DNA of 40,501 bases. Origin: Candidatus Dorea gallistercoris. Its GTDB lineage: Bacteria; Bacillota; Clostridia; Lachnospirales; Lachnospiraceae. Position 1 is the first letter of the stretch. Each line of letters opens with the position of its first letter. The position numbers and the translations under genes were made by a program. The stretch is taken from contig DXGF01000132.1 of assembly GCA_019114065.1 (NCBI GenBank), positions 1 to 40,501 of the forward strand, given 5' to 3'. Below the pieces are notes generated by a model, which worked only from the letters and a program-made list of their open reading frames with translations, was not told where the DNA came from and did no database searches. This document shows positions 23,554-40,501 of the stretch, in pieces.

Positions 23554-24027
23554 ATGCATGTAGATATCTATACAGACGGAGCGGCCAGGGGCAACCCGGA
23601 TGGACCAGGAGGTTACGGGACCGTTCTGGAATACCGGGATTCCAGGGGAGAACTCCATACCAAAGAAATTTCCCAAGGCTACCAGAAGACCACCAATAAC
23701 CGGATGGAACTGATGGCTGCCATAGCCGGACTGGAAGCTTTGAACCGGCCCTGCCAGGTAGATCTGTATTCCGATTCCAAATACCTGGTAGACGCCTTCA
23801 ATCAGAATTGGATCCAGGGCTGGGTCAAGAAAGACTGGAAAAGAGGGAAAAACGAACCGGTCAAAAATATTGATCTCTGGAAACGGCTTCTGAAAGCCAA
23901 AGAGCCCCATCAGGTGACCTTTATCTGGGTCAAAGGCCACGACGGCCATCCGCAGAATGAGCGCTGCGATGAGCTGGCGACAACCGCGGCGGATGGAGAG
24001 GAGCTGATTGAGGACGTAGTAAAATGA
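23554..24027 (+). CDS. rnhA: Ribonuclease HI
   Basis: [75 protein letters not shown]. Confidence 0.96.
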
Positions 24028-24041
24028 AAAAAGGCTACGTC

Positions 24042-24096
24042 CCAAATTGACCTCAAGGGTGTACCAAAATGAAAAATGGGGTGTACCCGATTGATT
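24042..24096. repeat. Short tandem ~22-bp imperfect repeats, possible mobile-element end remnant
   Basis: CCAAATTGACCTCAAGGGTGTACC (24042-24065), CCAAAATGAAAAATGGGGTGTACC (24064-24087), then CCCGATTGATT; GGGTGTACC occurs twice. Confidence 0.5.
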
Positions 24097-24119
24097 ATTC
24101 TTTGATTTTGTGATACAAT
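24091..24119 (+). promoter_or_regulatory. Sigma-A promoter of rnpB
   Basis: TTGATT (24091-24096) - 17 bp - TACAAT (24114-24119), 8 nt before the RNase P P1 helix. Confidence 0.75.
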
Positions 24120-24127
24120 CTAAAACC

Positions 24128-24476
24128 GCGAGTAAGACAGGTAATCGCAGCTGCATGTGCCGAAAGGCCGCAGGTGAGGAAAGTCCGGGCTTCACAGGGC
24201 AGGATGCCGGATAACGTCCGGTGGAGGCGACTCCAAGGAAAGTGCAACAGAAATGTACCGCCTTCTCTAAAGGGAGGTAAGGGTGGAAGGGCAGTGTAAG
24301 AGACTACCGCCCTGCCGGTAACGGCGGGGGCACATGTAAACCCCATCCGAAGCAAGGCTGAATAAAGACGATGTGGCGGCCCGTCACGTCTTAGGTAGGC
24401 TGCTGGAGCCTGCCGGCAACGGCAGGCCTAGATAGATGATTACCCACGACATAACCCGGCTTATCGTCTTGCTCGC
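24128..24476 (+). ncRNA. rnpB: RNase P RNA, bacterial class A
   Basis: Conserved GAGGAAAGTCCGGGCT and ACATAACCCGGCTTAT blocks. P1 pairing GCGAGTAAGAC (5') with GTCTTGCTCGC (3') defines the ends. Confidence 0.95.
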
Positions 24477-24480
24477 AAGT

Positions 24481-24984
24481 TTATTCTAATGCTTTATCAT
24501 AGGCTAGTTTTCCGCTTCCCTGGAAAACGATCACTCCACGTTTGACAAATCCGTTTTTTTCTAAAATATGCTGCATCCGTTTGTTTGGAAAATCTGTGTC
24601 AACCCGAATGCTTGCGATCTGATTGTCAAGGCAAAGTTTCTCGATCAGGCGGAAAGCGACATCAGCCAGACCCCTCCCTCTGAAATCTCCATGGAATGCC
24701 ATCCGGTGTACGACGGCATAGGGGGCTTTCGTGTGCCATTCTCCTTCGATATTATTATAAGCAGGTTCCCCGTCAAAATCGACACACATGTAGCCGGCGA
24801 TCCGGCCGTCCGCCTTGATCACATACCCTTTCTGTGCCTCAATATCATCCCGGATCGTATCCGGATTAGGATAGTCTTCGGTCCATTGTGTGAATCCCTG
24901 TTCTTTCTGAAAATTTCGTCCCATCGCTATGATCTCCCAGCAGGTTTGCAGCTCATCCGGGCGCGCCAGTTCTAAGGTATACAT
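24481..24984 (-). CDS. GNAT family N-acetyltransferase
   Basis: YTLELARPDELQTCWEIIAMGRNFQKEQGFTQW, GYMCVDFDGEP, VHRMAFHGDFRGRGLADVAFRLIEKL, ILEKNGFVKRGVIVF. Start taken at Met7 of the ORF (SD AAGGAG). Confidence 0.9.
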   Translation of the reverse strand: MYTLELARPDELQTCWEIIAMGRNFQKEQGFTQWTEDYPNPDTIRDDIEAQKGYVIKADGRIAGYMCVDFDGEPAYNNIEGEWHTKAPYAVVHRMAFHGDFRGRGLADVAFRLIEKLCLDNQIASIRVDTDFPNKRMQHILEKNGFVKRGVIVFQGSGKLAYDKALE

Positions 24985-25053
24985 GTTTCGTTCTCCTTCC
25001 ATAAATATCTTGCAGAATTTCTTTCTTCTACATATAATAGCATTATATAATAA

Positions 25054-25100
25054 TTAAAAACAATTTAAAGATAAATGAGTAACAATTAAAAGAAATTTAA
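25054..25100. promoter_or_regulatory. Paired LysR-type operator-like sites
   Basis: TTAAAaacaaTTTAA (25054-25068) and TTAAAagaaaTTTAA (25086-25100): TTAAA-N5-TTTAA (T-N11-A class), spaced 32 bp, in the GNAT/LysR intergenic region. Confidence 0.55.
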
Positions 25101-25113
25101 GTATGGAGGAAAA

Positions 25114-25998
25114 ATGGAATTAAAGTATCTGAATACATTCCGCACGGTGGTGGAGACGGGAAGTTTTAGAGCTGCCGCGGAAAAGCTGAATTATACCCAA
25201 TCGGCCATCACTTTCCAGATGGGTCAGTTGGAGCAGGAATTATCTGTGAAATTGTTCGAGAAATCCGGGAGAAACATGGTCCTGACCCAGGCGGGGGAAC
25301 TGTTGGTCCCTTATGTGGATGAGGTGTTTCAGTCGGTAGAAAAACTGCGGTATTTTGAAAATGATCTGGCCGATTGCCAGGGGAGCATCCATATTGGAGT
25401 AGGAGAGACACTGCTGTGTTACAAGATTCCCACCGCGCTGAAAAAGTTTTGTCAGCAGGCGCCAAAGGCCCAGATCTATCTGCGCTCCATGAACTGTTAC
25501 GATATCCGGAATGAATTACTGCGGGGAAGTTTGGATCTGGGGATTTTCTATGAAGATATCGGCGGTTTTGGTTCTAGCCTGATCACCTATCCGATTGGTG
25601 ATTTTCCGTTGGTGCTGGTGGCCTCGCCGGAGACCAGGCGCAGATTCCCGGATTTTGTGACGCCGGACCAGACGCTTTCGGTCCCTTTGGTCATTAATGA
25701 GCCAACCTGTGTGTTTCGGCAGATTTTTGAAGAGTATTTAAGGAGAAAATCTATCACCCTGGATCATACGATCGAGATGTGGAGCATCCCCACGATCAAG
25801 AATCTGGTGAAAAGTGATGTGGGGATTTCCTATCTTCCTGAATTCACGGTGCGGGAAGAGTTAGAAGCAGGTGAACTGGAGATCGTCCCAACAGAGATCT
25901 CACACAATAGGATCACAGCCGTCTGCGCCCATAACAAGAATAAATGGATCAGCCCCCTGATGCGGATGATGATCGGGCTTTCCGGCTCGATCGCGTAA
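25114..25998 (+). CDS. LysR family transcriptional regulator
   Basis: N-terminal HTH MELKYLNTFRTVVETGSFRAAAEKLNYTQSAITFQMGQLEQELSVKLFEKSGRNMVLTQAGELL. Confidence 0.95.
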   Translation: MELKYLNTFRTVVETGSFRAAAEKLNYTQSAITFQMGQLEQELSVKLFEKSGRNMVLTQAGELLVPYVDEVFQSVEKLRYFENDLADCQGSIHIGVGETLLCYKIPTALKKFCQQAPKAQIYLRSMNCYDIRNELLRGSLDLGIFYEDIGGFGSSLITYPIGDFPLVLVASPETRRRFPDFVTPDQTLSVPLVINEPTCVFRQIFEEYLRRKSITLDHTIEMWSIPTIKNLVKSDVGISYLPEFTVREELEAGELEIVPTEISHNRITAVCAHNKNKWISPLMRMMIGLSGSIA

Positions 25999-26026
25999 AA
26001 AAATCTGGATTGTGTAAAAAATCTAG

Positions 26027-26527
26027 AGATATTTCAGTATATTTGAGTATGAAAAGGAACAGGAATATCTCTGTAATATGCTCAGATCCGGCTGGAGATT
26101 TGTAAGAGTCTAGCGGCATAGGGACCTATTACTTTGAGAAATGTGCGCCGGAAGATGTAGTCTATCAGCTTGACTATAATCAGGAGGGCCGCAGGAACAA
26201 AGAAGAATATGTGCAGATGTTCCAGGACCGCGGTTGGGAATATCTGCAGGATCATGTGGACTACAGCTACTTCCGCAAGAAGGTTTCTGAAATGACAGGG
26301 CCGGAAGAGATTTTCTGCGATATGAATCAAGAATTCAGATGATGAACTGGGTCTCCAAGGGAAGGATGATCCCTTTGCTGCTGATCTTCTTCTGCTGTCC
26401 GATTCCTCAGCTGTTAAACACGCTCTTTTACTTACACGACAATTTTGGCGCGATTCTGGTCAGCGCCGTCTTGGCGCTGTATGTGGCTGTCTTTACCATT
26501 TTCATGATGAAATATAACGCCTATTGA
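26027..26527 (+). pseudogene. Decayed DUF2812-type membrane protein gene (no start codon, two frameshifts)
   Basis: Consecutive frames give RYFSIFEYEKEQEYLCNMLRSGWRFVRV / SGIGTYYFEKCAPEDVVYQLDYNQEGRRNKEEYVQMFQDRGWEYLQDHVDYSYFRKKVSEMTGPEEIFCD / YESRIQMMNWVSKGRMIPLLLIFFCC...TM. Shifts lie near 26111 and 26321. Confidence 0.75.
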
Positions 26528-26547
26528 AGAAACGCGGAAAAGTAAAA

Positions 26548-26587
26548 GAAAAGCACGGCCGCCTGCTGTCTGACGGCCGTGCTTTTC
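26548..26587. terminator. Bidirectional intrinsic terminator (DUF2812 pseudogene / pyrBI)
   Basis: Perfect 14-bp inverted repeat GAAAAGCACGGCCG (26548-26561) / CGGCCGTGCTTTTC (26574-26587). Confidence 0.9.
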
Positions 26588-26599
26588 CTTTATGATCAA

Positions 26600-27040
26600 T
26601 TATCTTCTGTGGTATTTCTCTTCGCAGTATTTGCAGCGGTATACTTCATTCTCCGGATCTGTCAGTACAAAGACATGATCCAGCCCCTGCTCGATGGAAG
26701 TGATGCACCGGGGGTTCTTACAGCGGATCACATTGGTGATCTCCTTGGGAAGGTGGAGACATTTCTTGTCTACGATCTCGCTGTCCTTGATGATATTGAC
26801 GGTGATATCATGATCGATGAAGCCCAGAATATCCAGATCCATGAAATCAATGGGACATTCGATCTTCATAATGTCTTTGCGTCCCATCTTGCTGCTCCTG
26901 GCGTTCTTGATGATAGCCACACAGCAGTCCAGTTTATCCAGATGCAGATATTTGTAGATGTCCATGCTGCGGCCCGCCTGGATGTGATCCAGGACGAAGC
27001 CCTCCTCGATTCGTCCGACGGTCAGTGTATTTTTTACCAT
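26600..27040 (-). CDS. pyrI: Aspartate carbamoyltransferase regulatory subunit
   Basis: MVKNTLTVGRIEEGFVLDHIQAG, Zn-site cysteines CKNPRC...CKYC; adjacent to pyrB. Confidence 0.96.
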   Translation of the reverse strand: MVKNTLTVGRIEEGFVLDHIQAGRSMDIYKYLHLDKLDCCVAIIKNARSSKMGRKDIMKIECPIDFMDLDILGFIDHDITVNIIKDSEIVDKKCLHLPKEITNVIRCKNPRCITSIEQGLDHVFVLTDPENEVYRCKYCEEKYHRR

Positions 27041-27058
27041 GATCTCTTGGCCTCCTTC

Positions 27059-27976
27059 TTATACTTCAATCTCCAACAGTGTCAGGATCAGCGCCATTCT
27101 TATGTAAACGCCGTATTGGGCCTGTTTAAAATAAGCGGCTCGTGGATCGTCGTCCACTTCCACGGAGATCTCATTGACCCTGGGAAGGGGATGGAGCACG
27201 TACATGTCCTCAGGAGCAAGCTCCATTTTCTTGCGATCCAGGATGTAGAAATCCTTCATGCGCACATAATCTTCCTCATTGAAGAAACGTTCCTTCTGCA
27301 CCCGGGTCATGTAGAGCAGGTCCAGGTTGGGAAGAGCATCCTCCAGCCGGACTACTTCTTCATAAGGAATGTCCTGCTGATCCAGCACATCGGAACGGAT
27401 GTAGCTGGGAAGCCGCAGCTCCTCCGGGGAGATCAGCACGAAACGAATCCCTGGATAGCGGACCAGAGCGTGGATCAGAGAGTGGACGGTACGGCCAAAT
27501 TTCAGATCCCCGCACAGACCGATGGTCATGTTCTCCAGCCGGCCTTTCAGACCGCGGATGGTCAGGAGATCGGTCAGGGTCTGGGTGGGATGCTGATGGC
27601 CTCCGTCCCCCGCGTTGATGACCGGGATTCTGGAATGCTTGGCGGCAACCATGGGAGCCCCCTCTTTGTGATGCCGCATAGCGCAGATATCCGCGTAGCA
27701 GGAAATGGTGCGGATGGTGTCAGCCACACTTTCTCCTTTGGCGGCGGAACTGGAGTCGGCAGTGGAAAATCCCAGCACGCTGCCTCCCAGGTTGAGCATG
27801 GCCGCCTCGTGGCTGAGACGGGTCCTGGTGCTTGGCTCATAGAAGAGGGTGGCCAGCTTCTTCCCCGCGCAGGCATGGGCGTATTTCCCCGGATCTGCCT
27901 CAATGTCGGATGCCAGATTCATCAGATAATCCAATTCTTCCACGGAAAAATCCAGTGGACTCATTAAATGTCTCAT
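27059..27976 (-). CDS. pyrB: Aspartate carbamoyltransferase catalytic subunit
   Basis: [56 protein letters not shown]. Confidence 0.97.
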
Positions 27977-28155
27977 AGAAACCTCCTTTGAAGATGTATC
28001 AATATTCCGTTGGTATTCTGGGATATTGTGAGTTTGGAATAAAAATAGAAAATAAAAGATCCTAATTGAAAGAACAGGGAAAAGAACGGGCGATCCTCGC
28101 GGACAAGAACAGGAACAGCGGCCTGCCTGGCTATTCTATATTCATACTGGCGCAT
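27973..28155 (-). CDS. 60-aa leader ORF upstream of and overlapping pyrB; candidate regulatory leader peptide
   Basis: SD GGAGG (GGAGGTGGGAAAGAG-ATG); peptide [43 protein letters not shown]...; its TGA overlaps the pyrB ATG (ATGA). Confidence 0.55.
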
Positions 28156-36759: not shown

Positions 36760-37298
36760 ATCTGCCGAATAAACTGACCGTGCTGCGGGTGATCATGGTA
36801 CCCTTTTTTGTTTTCTTTATGCTGACGGATGTGGGAGGGGCGGCTAACAAATGGATCGCGCTAGTGCTGTTCTGTGTGGCCAGCCTTACCGATATGCTGG
36901 ATGGAAAGATCGCCAGATCCCGGAACCTGGTGACGAATTTTGGAAAGTTCATGGATCCTCTGGCGGACAAACTGCTGGTCTGCTCCGCCATGATCTGTAT
37001 GATCCCGGACGGCACTCTTGCCGCCTGGTTTGTGATCGTGATCATCGCCAGGGAATTTATCATCAGCGGGTTCCGGCTGGTGGCTTCCGACAGCGGGATC
37101 GTGATCGCTGCCAGCTACTGGGGGAAATTCAAGACGGTCTCCCAGATGTTCATGATCATCGTGCTGATCGCGGACCTGGGCGGCATCTTTGACGGGATCG
37201 GAACGATCCTGATGTGGCTGTCTCTGATCCTGACGGTGGTATCCCTGATCGATTATGTGGCCAAGAATGTACAGGTGCTGACAAAAGGAGGAATGTAA
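36756..37298 (+). CDS. pgsA: CDP-diacylglycerol-glycerol-3-phosphate 3-phosphatidyltransferase
   Basis: MNLPNKLTVLRVIMVPFFVFFML; CDP-alcohol phosphotransferase motif TDMLDGKIARSRNLVTNFGKFMDPLADKLL. Confidence 0.96.
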   Translation: MNLPNKLTVLRVIMVPFFVFFMLTDVGGAANKWIALVLFCVASLTDMLDGKIARSRNLVTNFGKFMDPLADKLLVCSAMICMIPDGTLAAWFVIVIIAREFIISGFRLVASDSGIVIAASYWGKFKTVSQMFMIIVLIADLGGIFDGIGTILMWLSLILTVVSLIDYVAKNVQVLTKGGM

Positions 37299-37301
37299 GA
37301 C

Positions 37302-38546
37302 ATGACGGTGGAACTGATCTCGGTGGGGACGGAACTCCTTCTCGGGAATATCATCAATACTAACGCCTCTTATCTGGCGGAGCACTGCGCGCTTCTGGGG
37401 CTCTCCTGCTATCATCAGAGTGTGGTGGGGGACAACGAGGAAAGGCTGGAGGAGGAACTGCGCAGGGCCTTGTCTCGGTCAGATATCGTGATCTTAAGCG
37501 GCGGCTTGGGTCCCACCAAGGACGATCTGACCAAGGAAGTGACGGCCAGGGTCTTTGGCTGGGAGTTAAAAGAAGATGCCCATACAAGGGCCAGGATCCA
37601 GGAATATTTTGAGCGGAACCGCAGGCGGAAGATCACATCCAACAATTGGAAGCAGGCATTGGTGCCGGAAGGCGCCACTGTGGTGGATAATCATAACGGG
37701 ACGGCGCCGGGGCTGATCCTGGAGAAGGATGGGAAGACAGCCGTGCTGCTGCCGGGGCCCCCCAATGAGCTCCGGCCTATGTTTGAGCGGGATATCGCCC
37801 CCTATCTGAACAAACGGGAACCGGAGGGGATCTATTCCCGTATGATCAAGATCTGCGGGATGGGAGAGAGTCAGGTGGAGTCCCAGATCACAGATCTGAT
37901 GGACCGGGAGAACCCCACGCTGGCGCCCTACGCCAAGACCGGGGAGGTCCACCTCAGGGTGACAGCGAAAGCGGGAGATGAGGAACAGGCAGAGGCCCTG
38001 ATCCGTCCGGTGGAAGAGGAGTTGTATCAAAGATTTGGAAAGCTGATCTACACGGATCGGGAAGAGGTGACACTGGAAGCGGCTGTCGTGAGCCTGCTGG
38101 AGGAGCGAGGAATGACGCTCACCACGGCGGAATCCTGTACCGGAGGCCTTCTGGCCGGAAGGATCATGAATGTGCCGGGGGTTTCGAATGTATATCAGGA
38201 AGGTCATATTACCTATTCTAATGAGGCCAAGGAAAAGATTCTGGGCGTGAAGCATGGGACCCTGGCAACCTACGGCGCGGTCAGTCCCCAGACGGCGGCG
38301 GAGATGGCGGCGGGGGCGGCAGCAGCGGCCGGGGCTTCCGCCGCGCTCTCTGTGACCGGGATCGCCGGACCAGGAGGCGGGACCAGGGAAAAACCGGTAG
38401 GACTGGTCTACATTGGCTGCCAGGTGGATGGCCGTGTCCGGGTGGAGGAATATCATTTTACCGGCAGCCGGGAGAAGAACCGGGAATTCGCAGTGGTAAA
38501 CGCGCTGACGATTCTCAGGGAGGAACTGCTGAAAGCTTCAGAGTAA
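37302..38546 (+). CDS. cinA: Competence/damage-inducible protein CinA (nicotinamide-nucleotide amidase)
   Basis: MTVELISVGTELLLGNIINTNASYLAEH, LSGGLGPTKDDLTKEV, LLPGPPNELRPMFE, TTAESCTGGLLAGRIMNVPGVS. Confidence 0.96.
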   Translation: MTVELISVGTELLLGNIINTNASYLAEHCALLGLSCYHQSVVGDNEERLEEELRRALSRSDIVILSGGLGPTKDDLTKEVTARVFGWELKEDAHTRARIQEYFERNRRRKITSNNWKQALVPEGATVVDNHNGTAPGLILEKDGKTAVLLPGPPNELRPMFERDIAPYLNKREPEGIYSRMIKICGMGESQVESQITDLMDRENPTLAPYAKTGEVHLRVTAKAGDEEQAEALIRPVEEELYQRFGKLIYTDREEVTLEAAVVSLLEERGMTLTTAESCTGGLLAGRIMNVPGVSNVYQEGHITYSNEAKEKILGVKHGTLATYGAVSPQTAAEMAAGAAAAAGASAALSVTGIAGPGGGTREKPVGLVYIGCQVDGRVRVEEYHFTGSREKNREFAVVNALTILREELLKASE

Positions 38547-38558
38547 GGAGGGATGACT

Positions 38559-40022
38559 ATGGAAATCAGACGGTTGGAGTATCAGGAACTGCTACCGGCC
38601 CTTCATCTGGTATGGGAAGTGTTTGCCCAGGATGTGGCAACCTCCTATACGCCGGAGGGAGTGGCAGAATTTCAGGACTTCATTAAATACGAAAATATCA
38701 GTCCCCTGTTCCAGAAGCAGGAACAGATCTTCTTTGGAGCCTTTGACAACGGACAGATGTGCGGAGTGATCGCATCTGGCGGAAATGGGCACATCAGCCT
38801 GTTTTTTGTGAAAAAAGAATATCAGAGGCAGGGCATAGGGAGGATGCTTTTCCAGACAGTCTACAATTACTGCGCCCAGCGGCTCATGGTCCGGGAACTT
38901 ACGGTACACGCGGCCCCCGCGGCAGTACCGGTCTATGAGCGGCTTGGGATGCGCGCGGCCGGCCCGGAGAGGGAAGAACATGGCATCCGATATGTGCCCA
39001 TGTCTGTGTATGTCAGCCCGGGGCTGGTACAGCCGGTGAAGCCAAGATCCAAAGCGCCGCTGATCATCGCGGCGGTGGCGGGAGTTGTGCTGCTGATCGC
39101 GCTCATCCTGGCGGGAGTGTTCTTTGTCCGCAATTTCCAACGGGCGATGCGGCTGACTGACGAGTATCTGGAAGAGCAGCCGGAGAACGGCTGGGATTCC
39201 GGAGGCGGCTGGGATTCCGGAGGCGGCTGGGATTCTGGCGGCGGCTGGGATTCTGGCGGCGGAAGCCAGGAGTCAAGCGGTCTTAACGCGATCCCTGCCT
39301 ATGAGGCGGAAGGACTTTCTTATGAAATCCGGGAAGAAACTTACAACTTCATTGACGATGAGAAACAGTCCACGATCATCCAGTTCGATGTCCGGTATCC
39401 GGTGCTGGAGGGGCTGGATTCTCAGACGACAGCCAAGATCAATGAGGCGATCAAAAACTGCGCCATGGCGACGGTGGATAAGATCTACACCAATCCGTCC
39501 CAGGAGATCAAAGAAAAGGTCCTGGGAGAAGAGGTTCCCATCTTGGCAAGTTATGTGACCTATAAAGTCTGCTACGCGGGAGAGGATCTCATCAGCATCG
39601 CTTTCGAGGATTACAGCTATCAGGGGAGCCAGGATAGCTTTGGGGCGGATCTTCGGACGATCAATATCGGTCTGAAGGACGGGAAGGTCTATCAGGTCCA
39701 GGATATCGTGGATCTGGACGAAGCTTTTGTGGAGGACTGGCTGGAAGTCATGCGGGCAGAGGCGGAGAATCAAGCGTTCCTGTCCGAATTGGACACAGAG
39801 CAGATGATCGGGACACTGGGAGGAGATACACAGGATGGCGTATATACGCCCAACTTTTTCGTGTACGCGGATGGGATCGAGATCGGATATGACCTCAACT
39901 ATCCTCAGGGGGATTCCCATGATCTGGGCTATGTCTGGGTGACGGCGCCTTTTACCTTCGAAGAACTGGAGGCATATGCCTCAGACAGTGATTTCTGGAA
40001 CTGTCTCGATGCCGCGCCGTAA
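38559..40022 (+). CDS. GNAT acetyltransferase - TM - (WDSGGG)4 - extracytoplasmic DUF4163/DUF3298-like domain fusion
   Basis: GNAT motif FFVKKEYQRQGIGRMLFQTV...VYERLGMRAAG; single TM APLIIAAVAGVVLLIALILAGVFFV; repeat linker; C-terminal domain IIQFDVRYPVLEGLDSQTTAKINEAIKN...YKVCYAGEDLISIAFEDYSY. ATG 38559 has SD AAGGAGGG 7 nt upstream. Confidence 0.85.
   Translation: MEIRRLEYQELLPALHLVWEVFAQDVATSYTPEGVAEFQDFIKYENISPLFQKQEQIFFGAFDNGQMCGVIASGGNGHISLFFVKKEYQRQGIGRMLFQTVYNYCAQRLMVRELTVHAAPAAVPVYERLGMRAAGPEREEHGIRYVPMSVYVSPGLVQPVKPRSKAPLIIAAVAGVVLLIALILAGVFFVRNFQRAMRLTDEYLEEQPENGWDSGGGWDSGGGWDSGGGWDSGGGSQESSGLNAIPAYEAEGLSYEIREETYNFIDDEKQSTIIQFDVRYPVLEGLDSQTTAKINEAIKNCAMATVDKIYTNPSQEIKEKVLGEEVPILASYVTYKVCYAGEDLISIAFEDYSYQGSQDSFGADLRTINIGLKDGKVYQVQDIVDLDEAFVEDWLEVMRAEAENQAFLSELDTEQMIGTLGGDTQDGVYTPNFFVYADGIEIGYDLNYPQGDSHDLGYVWVTAPFTFEELEAYASDSDFWNCLDAAP
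39192..39263 (+). repeat. 4 x 18-bp in-frame tandem repeat encoding (WDSGGG)4
   Basis: TGGGATTCCGGAGGCGGC x2 then TGGGATTCTGGCGGCGG(C/A) x2. Confidence 0.97.
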
Positions 40023-40048: not shown

Positions 40049-40501
40049 ATGGAAATTCGAGTGTTGAGAGAAACTGAGATCCATGAGGCGCTGGAAATGT
40101 CTGCCGGAATCTTTAGCGGATTGGAGCAGGAAGAGGAGATCACCCATCAGGCAGAGGAAGGGAACCTTATCCTGGCTGGATGCTTTGGAGACGGCCCGGT
40201 CAGCGGCCTTTTGGGCTGGGGGATGGTAGACAGCGGCGGACAGATCCTGTTTGTGTATGTCCGGGAGGAACACCGCCGGCATGGCATGGGTACGGCGATC
40301 ACGGGGTTGCTCTGTCAGGTGTGCAGTCAGAACTATTCGGTCCTCAGGATCATGGCGGAAGTCCCACCGGAACTGGTTCCCTTTTTCGGGCACTGTGGCC
40401 TTCGGCCCTACGGTCCGGAGCAGCAGAGGGATGGAAGAAGCTTTCTTCCTATGGAATTGATGATCTCCCCGGTGCAGGTAAAGCCTCATAAGAACGGCTT
40501 T
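40049..40501 (+). CDS. GNAT-type acetyltransferase, truncated by the window end; likely paralog of the preceding gene's GNAT domain
   Basis: Open frame from ATG 40049 to the edge: MEIRVLRETEIHEALEMSAGIFSG...ILFVYVREEHRRHGMGTAITGLLCQV...VPFFGHCGLRPYGPEQQRDGRSFLPMELMISPVQVKPHKNGF. Missing from the ORF track in this frame, probably because no stop is reached. Confidence 0.8.
   Translation, partial: MEIRVLRETEIHEALEMSAGIFSGLEQEEEITHQAEEGNLILAGCFGDGPVSGLLGWGMVDSGGQILFVYVREEHRRHGMGTAITGLLCQVCSQNYSVLRIMAEVPPELVPFFGHCGLRPYGPEQQRDGRSFLPMELMISPVQVKPHKNGF

Follow-up and report, generated by a model that had tools for sequence, protein, structure and literature searches.

A predicted one-pass envelope protein of Lachnospiraceae with a GNAT domain inside and an RsiV-like domain outside

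What is an acetyltransferase fold doing on a membrane anchor, joined to a domain that would lie outside the cell? To our knowledge, bacterial acetyltransferases are described as soluble proteins that are regulated by cytoplasmic metabolites. The window analysed here, a stretch of 40,501 nucleotides from Candidatus Dorea gallistercoris, encodes a protein that raises this question. A GNAT fixed to an outer domain of the RsiV type would physically link the envelope directly to acetyl-CoA chemistry.

The gene and its parts

The gene, hereafter copy a, occupies 38559..40022 on the forward strand, as do all features described below, and encodes a GNAT-TM-linker-RsiV-like protein of 487 residues. The mechanically called open reading frame starts at 38553 and would yield 489 residues. 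We prefer the ATG at 38559, because the Shine-Dalgarno sequence AGGAGG (38546..38551) lies 7 nt before it, while almost touching the ATG at 38553. Full-length orthologues in the same frame occur in two genomes of the same genus, each on one contig, with 80% (G001) and 62% (G002) identity, and eleven further genomes hold full-length relatives. We also sought points in favour of an assembly or frameshift artefact, in which a GNAT gene had become joined to the gene of some other, unrelated membrane protein, and found none; given the intact relatives, such an artefact is scarcely conceivable and was rejected. Nei-Gojobori dN/dS values against G001 and G002 are 0.08 and 0.17 for the GNAT and 0.07 and 0.22 for the C-domain, rough figures because synonymous sites are close to saturation, and they indicate purifying selection on the two domains alike.

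The order of GNAT, transmembrane (TM) helix, repeat and C-domain given in the earlier note is confirmed by Pfam, hydropathy and the sequence. Residues 27-150 (38637..39008) match Acetyltransf_10 (PF13673, 1.1e-40; 139 bits against a cut-off of 23.6) and also PF00583 (5.6e-12), in line with the proposed GNAT fold. Not all GNATs need a catalytic tyrosine. Tyr126 (38934..38936), aligned with stand-alone GNATs, takes the position of the tyrosine that is the general acid of many members. The acetyl-CoA P-loop, whose loss would have spoken against the fold, is present as QRQGIG at residues 89-94 (Q89, G92, G94; 38823..38840). Both features agree with the published descriptions of GNATs, in which the motif A P-loop reads R/Q-x-x-G-x-G/A and tyrosine acts as the general acid in some members (PMC8556138).

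A single strong hydrophobic segment with a mean Kyte-Doolittle value of 3.1 forms the core of the TM helix (residues 169-187; 39063..39119), as the one-TM claim had it. Across the family the flanks of this helix carry a charge of about +3 on the N side, positive in nearly all members, and mixed charge on the C side. In copy a alone, the K/R count is the same on both flanks and only acidic residues tip the bias. The positive N-side flank, the position of the helix after a soluble acetyl-CoA-type domain and the C-domain, of a type known to be extracytoplasmic in RsiV, support the predicted one-pass N-in/C-out topology, which had been proposed before.

Between membrane and outer domain lies the linker with its repeat (WDSGGG)4, residues 212-235 (39192..39263). 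Its DNA is an 18-bp tandem repeat with 96% matches and a score of 122, far above chance. The repeat is perfect, as first described, but it is no conserved device: WDSGGG occurs four times in copy a, the orthologues carry WDSGDG-type (G001) and GSDGWD-type (G002) linkers, and other genera have differing strings rich in Asp, Gly and aromatic residues. We thus rejected the repeat as a conserved functional element, since linkers differ in every genus. The linker, a flexible Gly/Asp/Trp-rich segment, is the most changeable part of the protein and differs from relative to relative, so the repeat is a local expansion of recent date. Such a long variable linker argues for tethering over rigid coupling of the two sides.

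The extracytoplasmic domain extends from residue 245 to the end (39291..40019; about 243 residues) and comprises a PdaC/DUF4163 region at residues 269-356 and a second half. PF13739 (PdaC) is matched at 4.9e-9 by the whole protein (37.6 bits, curated cut-off 29.1) and at 1.3e-9 by the C-domain alone, and five relatives match at 22-29 bits, under the cut-off. A profile of 18 C-domains matches PDB entry 3CYG at 8.8e-8, covering chiefly the first 160 profile positions; a smaller profile of seven C-domains gave only a chance match against PDB (telomerase, 0.038). The RsiV ectodomain combines DUF4163 and DUF3298, and 3CYG is reported as its closest structure (PMC5014341). Of the DUF4163/DUF3298 label in the earlier note, the first part stands by the PF13739 match; the DUF3298 model matched none of seven C-domains tested, and the second part leans on 3CYG and the RsiV literature. 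A single-sequence AlphaFold model of the C-domain reached a pLDDT of 47.5, had no Foldseek match below E = 0.001 and was discarded. The identity of a ligand is not transferable from RsiV, because Rv1980c shares this fold and yet does not bind lysozyme (PMC5014341).

Distribution, tandem copies and the cinA slot

Of 299 genomes spread over the GTDB family, 14 carry the GNAT-type architecture according to a C-domain profile search, counting one (G184) whose gene is split over contig ends. Order-wide (246 genomes) and class-wide (288 genomes) samples yielded no additional full member, so that, in the genomes sampled, the fused proteins form a family that stays within a single bacterial family. 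In the GNAT tree, one branch with a support of 100/98 divides the 19 fused GNATs from 25 that lack a TM helix and are mostly stand-alone. This tree, in which several fused GNATs form long branches, is consistent with one fusion event. Among further relatives, a related GNAT is joined to a methyltransferase domain and has no membrane domain (L032:5523-6830, G031). A scan of public contigs matched only two stand-alone GNAT stretches (L027:5980-6447 and L028:2850-3400); both carry in-frame stops in the public records and are decayed or mis-sequenced.

Copy a opens a tandem pair. A second family member, omitted from the earlier note, starts at 40049; of this copy b, only the GNAT part recognised by Pfam (40049..40501) is present, as the contig ends just before the expected TM helix. 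The opening of contig C146 of the same genome (L005:1-876) holds, in an open frame, a matching C-terminal half. Most likely this is the C-terminal part of b, with the TM part missing in between; we infer the join of C97 and C146 from synteny. The pair is intact and adjacent in G001 and G002, so each of the three genomes from this genus has it in tandem, as does a genome of another genus (G162). Copies of b keep the P-loop and carry Phe or Leu in place of Tyr. In G162, the first protein of the tandem (L073, 6087-8873) combines an a-type C-domain with a GNAT nearer to the b types, possibly through domain exchange between tandem copies or as a long-branch effect.

The locus is conserved. In 14 of 15 carrier genomes the gene directly follows cinA (37302..38546 in the window, assigned by synteny), in the order yicC-type, gmk, rpoZ, rimO, pgsA, cinA; we take these names from reading the proteins, not from database labels. 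The exception (G017) has its copy among sugar-transport-like genes. Elsewhere in the window, an imperfect 21-bp tandem repeat of 2.2 copies lies at the 3' end of pgsA (37205-37250), and a dip in GC and GC skew spans 24001-28000, a region that includes a 22-bp tandem repeat (25059-25103) and a 462-aa open reading frame (26579-27967) without a Pfam match.

The corresponding slot of other genera, frequently right ahead of recA, encodes a TM helix and a homologous outer domain behind a different N-terminus. This is a zinc ribbon in four genomes (G005, G225, G137, G103), a repeat-rich stretch in G129, and almost absent before the TM helix in G053, G049 and G097. A match was found in 10 of 70 regions downstream of cinA, 30 of which covered 1.5 kb only, and many of these genomes have no such gene there within the stretch covered. 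A homologous outer domain is found in the zinc-ribbon-TM proteins L034:4920-6176, L059, L060, L054, L062 and L061, several of them in the cinA slot; Pfam gives nothing at E<0.001 for the L034 protein, and this protein family looks uncurated.

The zinc-ribbon proteins form a group of their own in the C-domain tree, set apart with a support of 100/100. The protein of G053 (L078:254-1250), a bare TM helix and RsiV-like domain in the cinA slot, groups by its C-domain with the GNAT types, a hint that its GNAT was lost, although it forms a long branch. Because the slot keeps the outer domain while the N-terminus varies, the outer domain is the constant part and the GNAT an exchangeable module.

Proposed working and alternative explanations

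We propose, giving it about an even chance, that copy a is a one-pass envelope protein in which a constant RsiV-like, ligand-binding outer domain is combined with an exchangeable inner module, here a GNAT. The conserved function would be the binding of a wall or surface ligand by the outer domain, with a cytoplasmic module that differs by lineage and, in this one, is a GNAT held at the membrane. The GNAT of a most likely still binds acetyl-CoA and would acetylate an amine in its vicinity. Copy b, without the catalytic-type Tyr, probably pairs with a as a weak or inactive subunit. The neighbours of a are housekeeping genes and indicate no substrate.

Among the 19 fused GNATs, 15 retain the Gly pattern of the P-loop and 12 the catalytic-type Tyr; both occur together in ten copies, a among them, and one or the other is lost in nine. 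Catalysis in a is thus plausible. Acetylation is not required family-wide, because the P-loop is gone from four fused copies and the Tyr from seven. Relatives without a TM helix keep both features in 23 of 24 cases, against 10 of 19 fused copies (Fisher p=0.002, a value inflated by shared ancestry and by the choice of these relatives for their similarity to the a GNAT).

This difference invites the explanation that the GNAT is mainly a non-catalytic module for acyl-CoA binding, dimerisation or docking, the work being done outside through inside-out control or anchoring. The long branches that several fused lineages form in the GNAT tree, the position of the TM-only G053 protein inside the GNAT-type C-domain clade and the use of the same slot by zinc-ribbon versions point the same way. 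Against this, the stand-alone set chosen by similarity makes the comparison a biased one, the full signature persists in the a lineage under purifying selection and in about half of the family, and Tyr is dispensable in some GNATs. We consider this explanation somewhat unlikely.

The earlier note had suggested a switch from outside to inside, in which a ligand on the C-domain alters the GNAT and thereby the acetylation of a cytoplasmic target. Layout and topology fit such a switch, as does the intact catalytic signature of a; GNATs with small regulatory domains are known as type III (PMC8556138), and RsiV is an example of ligand sensing by the same type of outer domain (PMC5014341). However, the long variable linker between TM helix and C-domain is poorly suited to rigid coupling, the outer domain is retained in relatives that have exchanged or lack the GNAT, and the losses of P-loop or Tyr in 9 of 19 fused copies also weigh against it. 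Control of acetylation in this direction is possible, but as the explanation of the protein we rate it rather unlikely. The further proposal that a and b form a new kind of receptor, a heteromer of an active and a catalytically weakened GNAT, both fixed to RsiV-like outer domains, in which an envelope ligand sets acetylation in the cytoplasm, is distinctly improbable in our estimate. Kinship of the C-domain with 3CYG and RsiV could also suggest a receptor for lysozyme or wall damage, with ligand binding leading to regulated proteolysis and release of the GNAT into the cytoplasm. There is no ECF sigma gene among the neighbours of a, and the same fold in Rv1980c does not bind lysozyme (PMC5014341); we regard such a receptor as very improbable. 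The preferred reading remains a constant outer domain with an exchangeable inner module.

Comparison with known systems

The search for a described counterpart, mostly without subscription papers, returned no membrane-anchored GNAT with an outer domain. As far as we found, the conserved layout is not described in this literature, in keeping with the earlier statement that no system of this kind is known to be characterised. Reviews of bacterial protein acetyltransferases distinguish five domain types and describe none of them as anchored in the membrane and joined to an outer domain (PMC8556138, PMC11254643). Among these types I-V, type III joins a GNAT to a regulatory domain and type V combines an active with an inactive GNAT (PMC8556138). 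Whereas type III proteins have an N-terminal soluble ligand domain followed by the GNAT, the order in a is GNAT, TM helix, outer domain; in contrast to types I-V, the GNAT of a and b is N-terminal and the pair is encoded by two genes.

Stand-alone Acetyltransf_10 GNATs of about 155-190 residues from the same family and order share 28-45% identity with the a GNAT, together with the same P-loop and Y-x-x-x-G-F region. Unlike the fused copies, they have no TM helix or outer domain, and most keep an SPY motif that is absent from the fused proteins.

On the envelope side, RsiV resembles a in its single TM helix, its N-in/C-out orientation and its PdaC/DUF4163-type C-domain with 3CYG as the best solved relative. 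It differs in having a sigma-binding domain inside and an adjacent sigma gene, whereas a has a GNAT inside. A role of a as an ECF anti-sigma factor was rejected, as the N-terminus is a GNAT and the neighbours, presumably cinA, pgsA, rimO, rpoZ and gmk, include no sigma gene. With the peptidoglycan deacetylase PdaC, a shares the accessory DUF4163 domain only; Pfam finds no polysaccharide deacetylase catalytic domain in a, and a deacetylase reading of the PdaC match was rejected. TcaA of Staphylococcus aureus has a small zinc-finger module inside, one TM helix and most of the protein outside (PMC10328498), an analogy of layout and not a claim of homology; TcaA has no GNAT.

A further comparison lies in the cinA slot. 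Zinc-ribbon-TM-RsiV-like proteins (for example L034:4920-6176) share with a the slot, the single TM helix and a homologous outer domain, but carry the zinc ribbon inside, and their C-domains form a separate clade (100/100). The slot amounts to a natural experiment in which one type of outer domain stays while the inner module is swapped between a GNAT, a zinc ribbon and almost nothing, and through this exchange a comparison can test what the inner module does.
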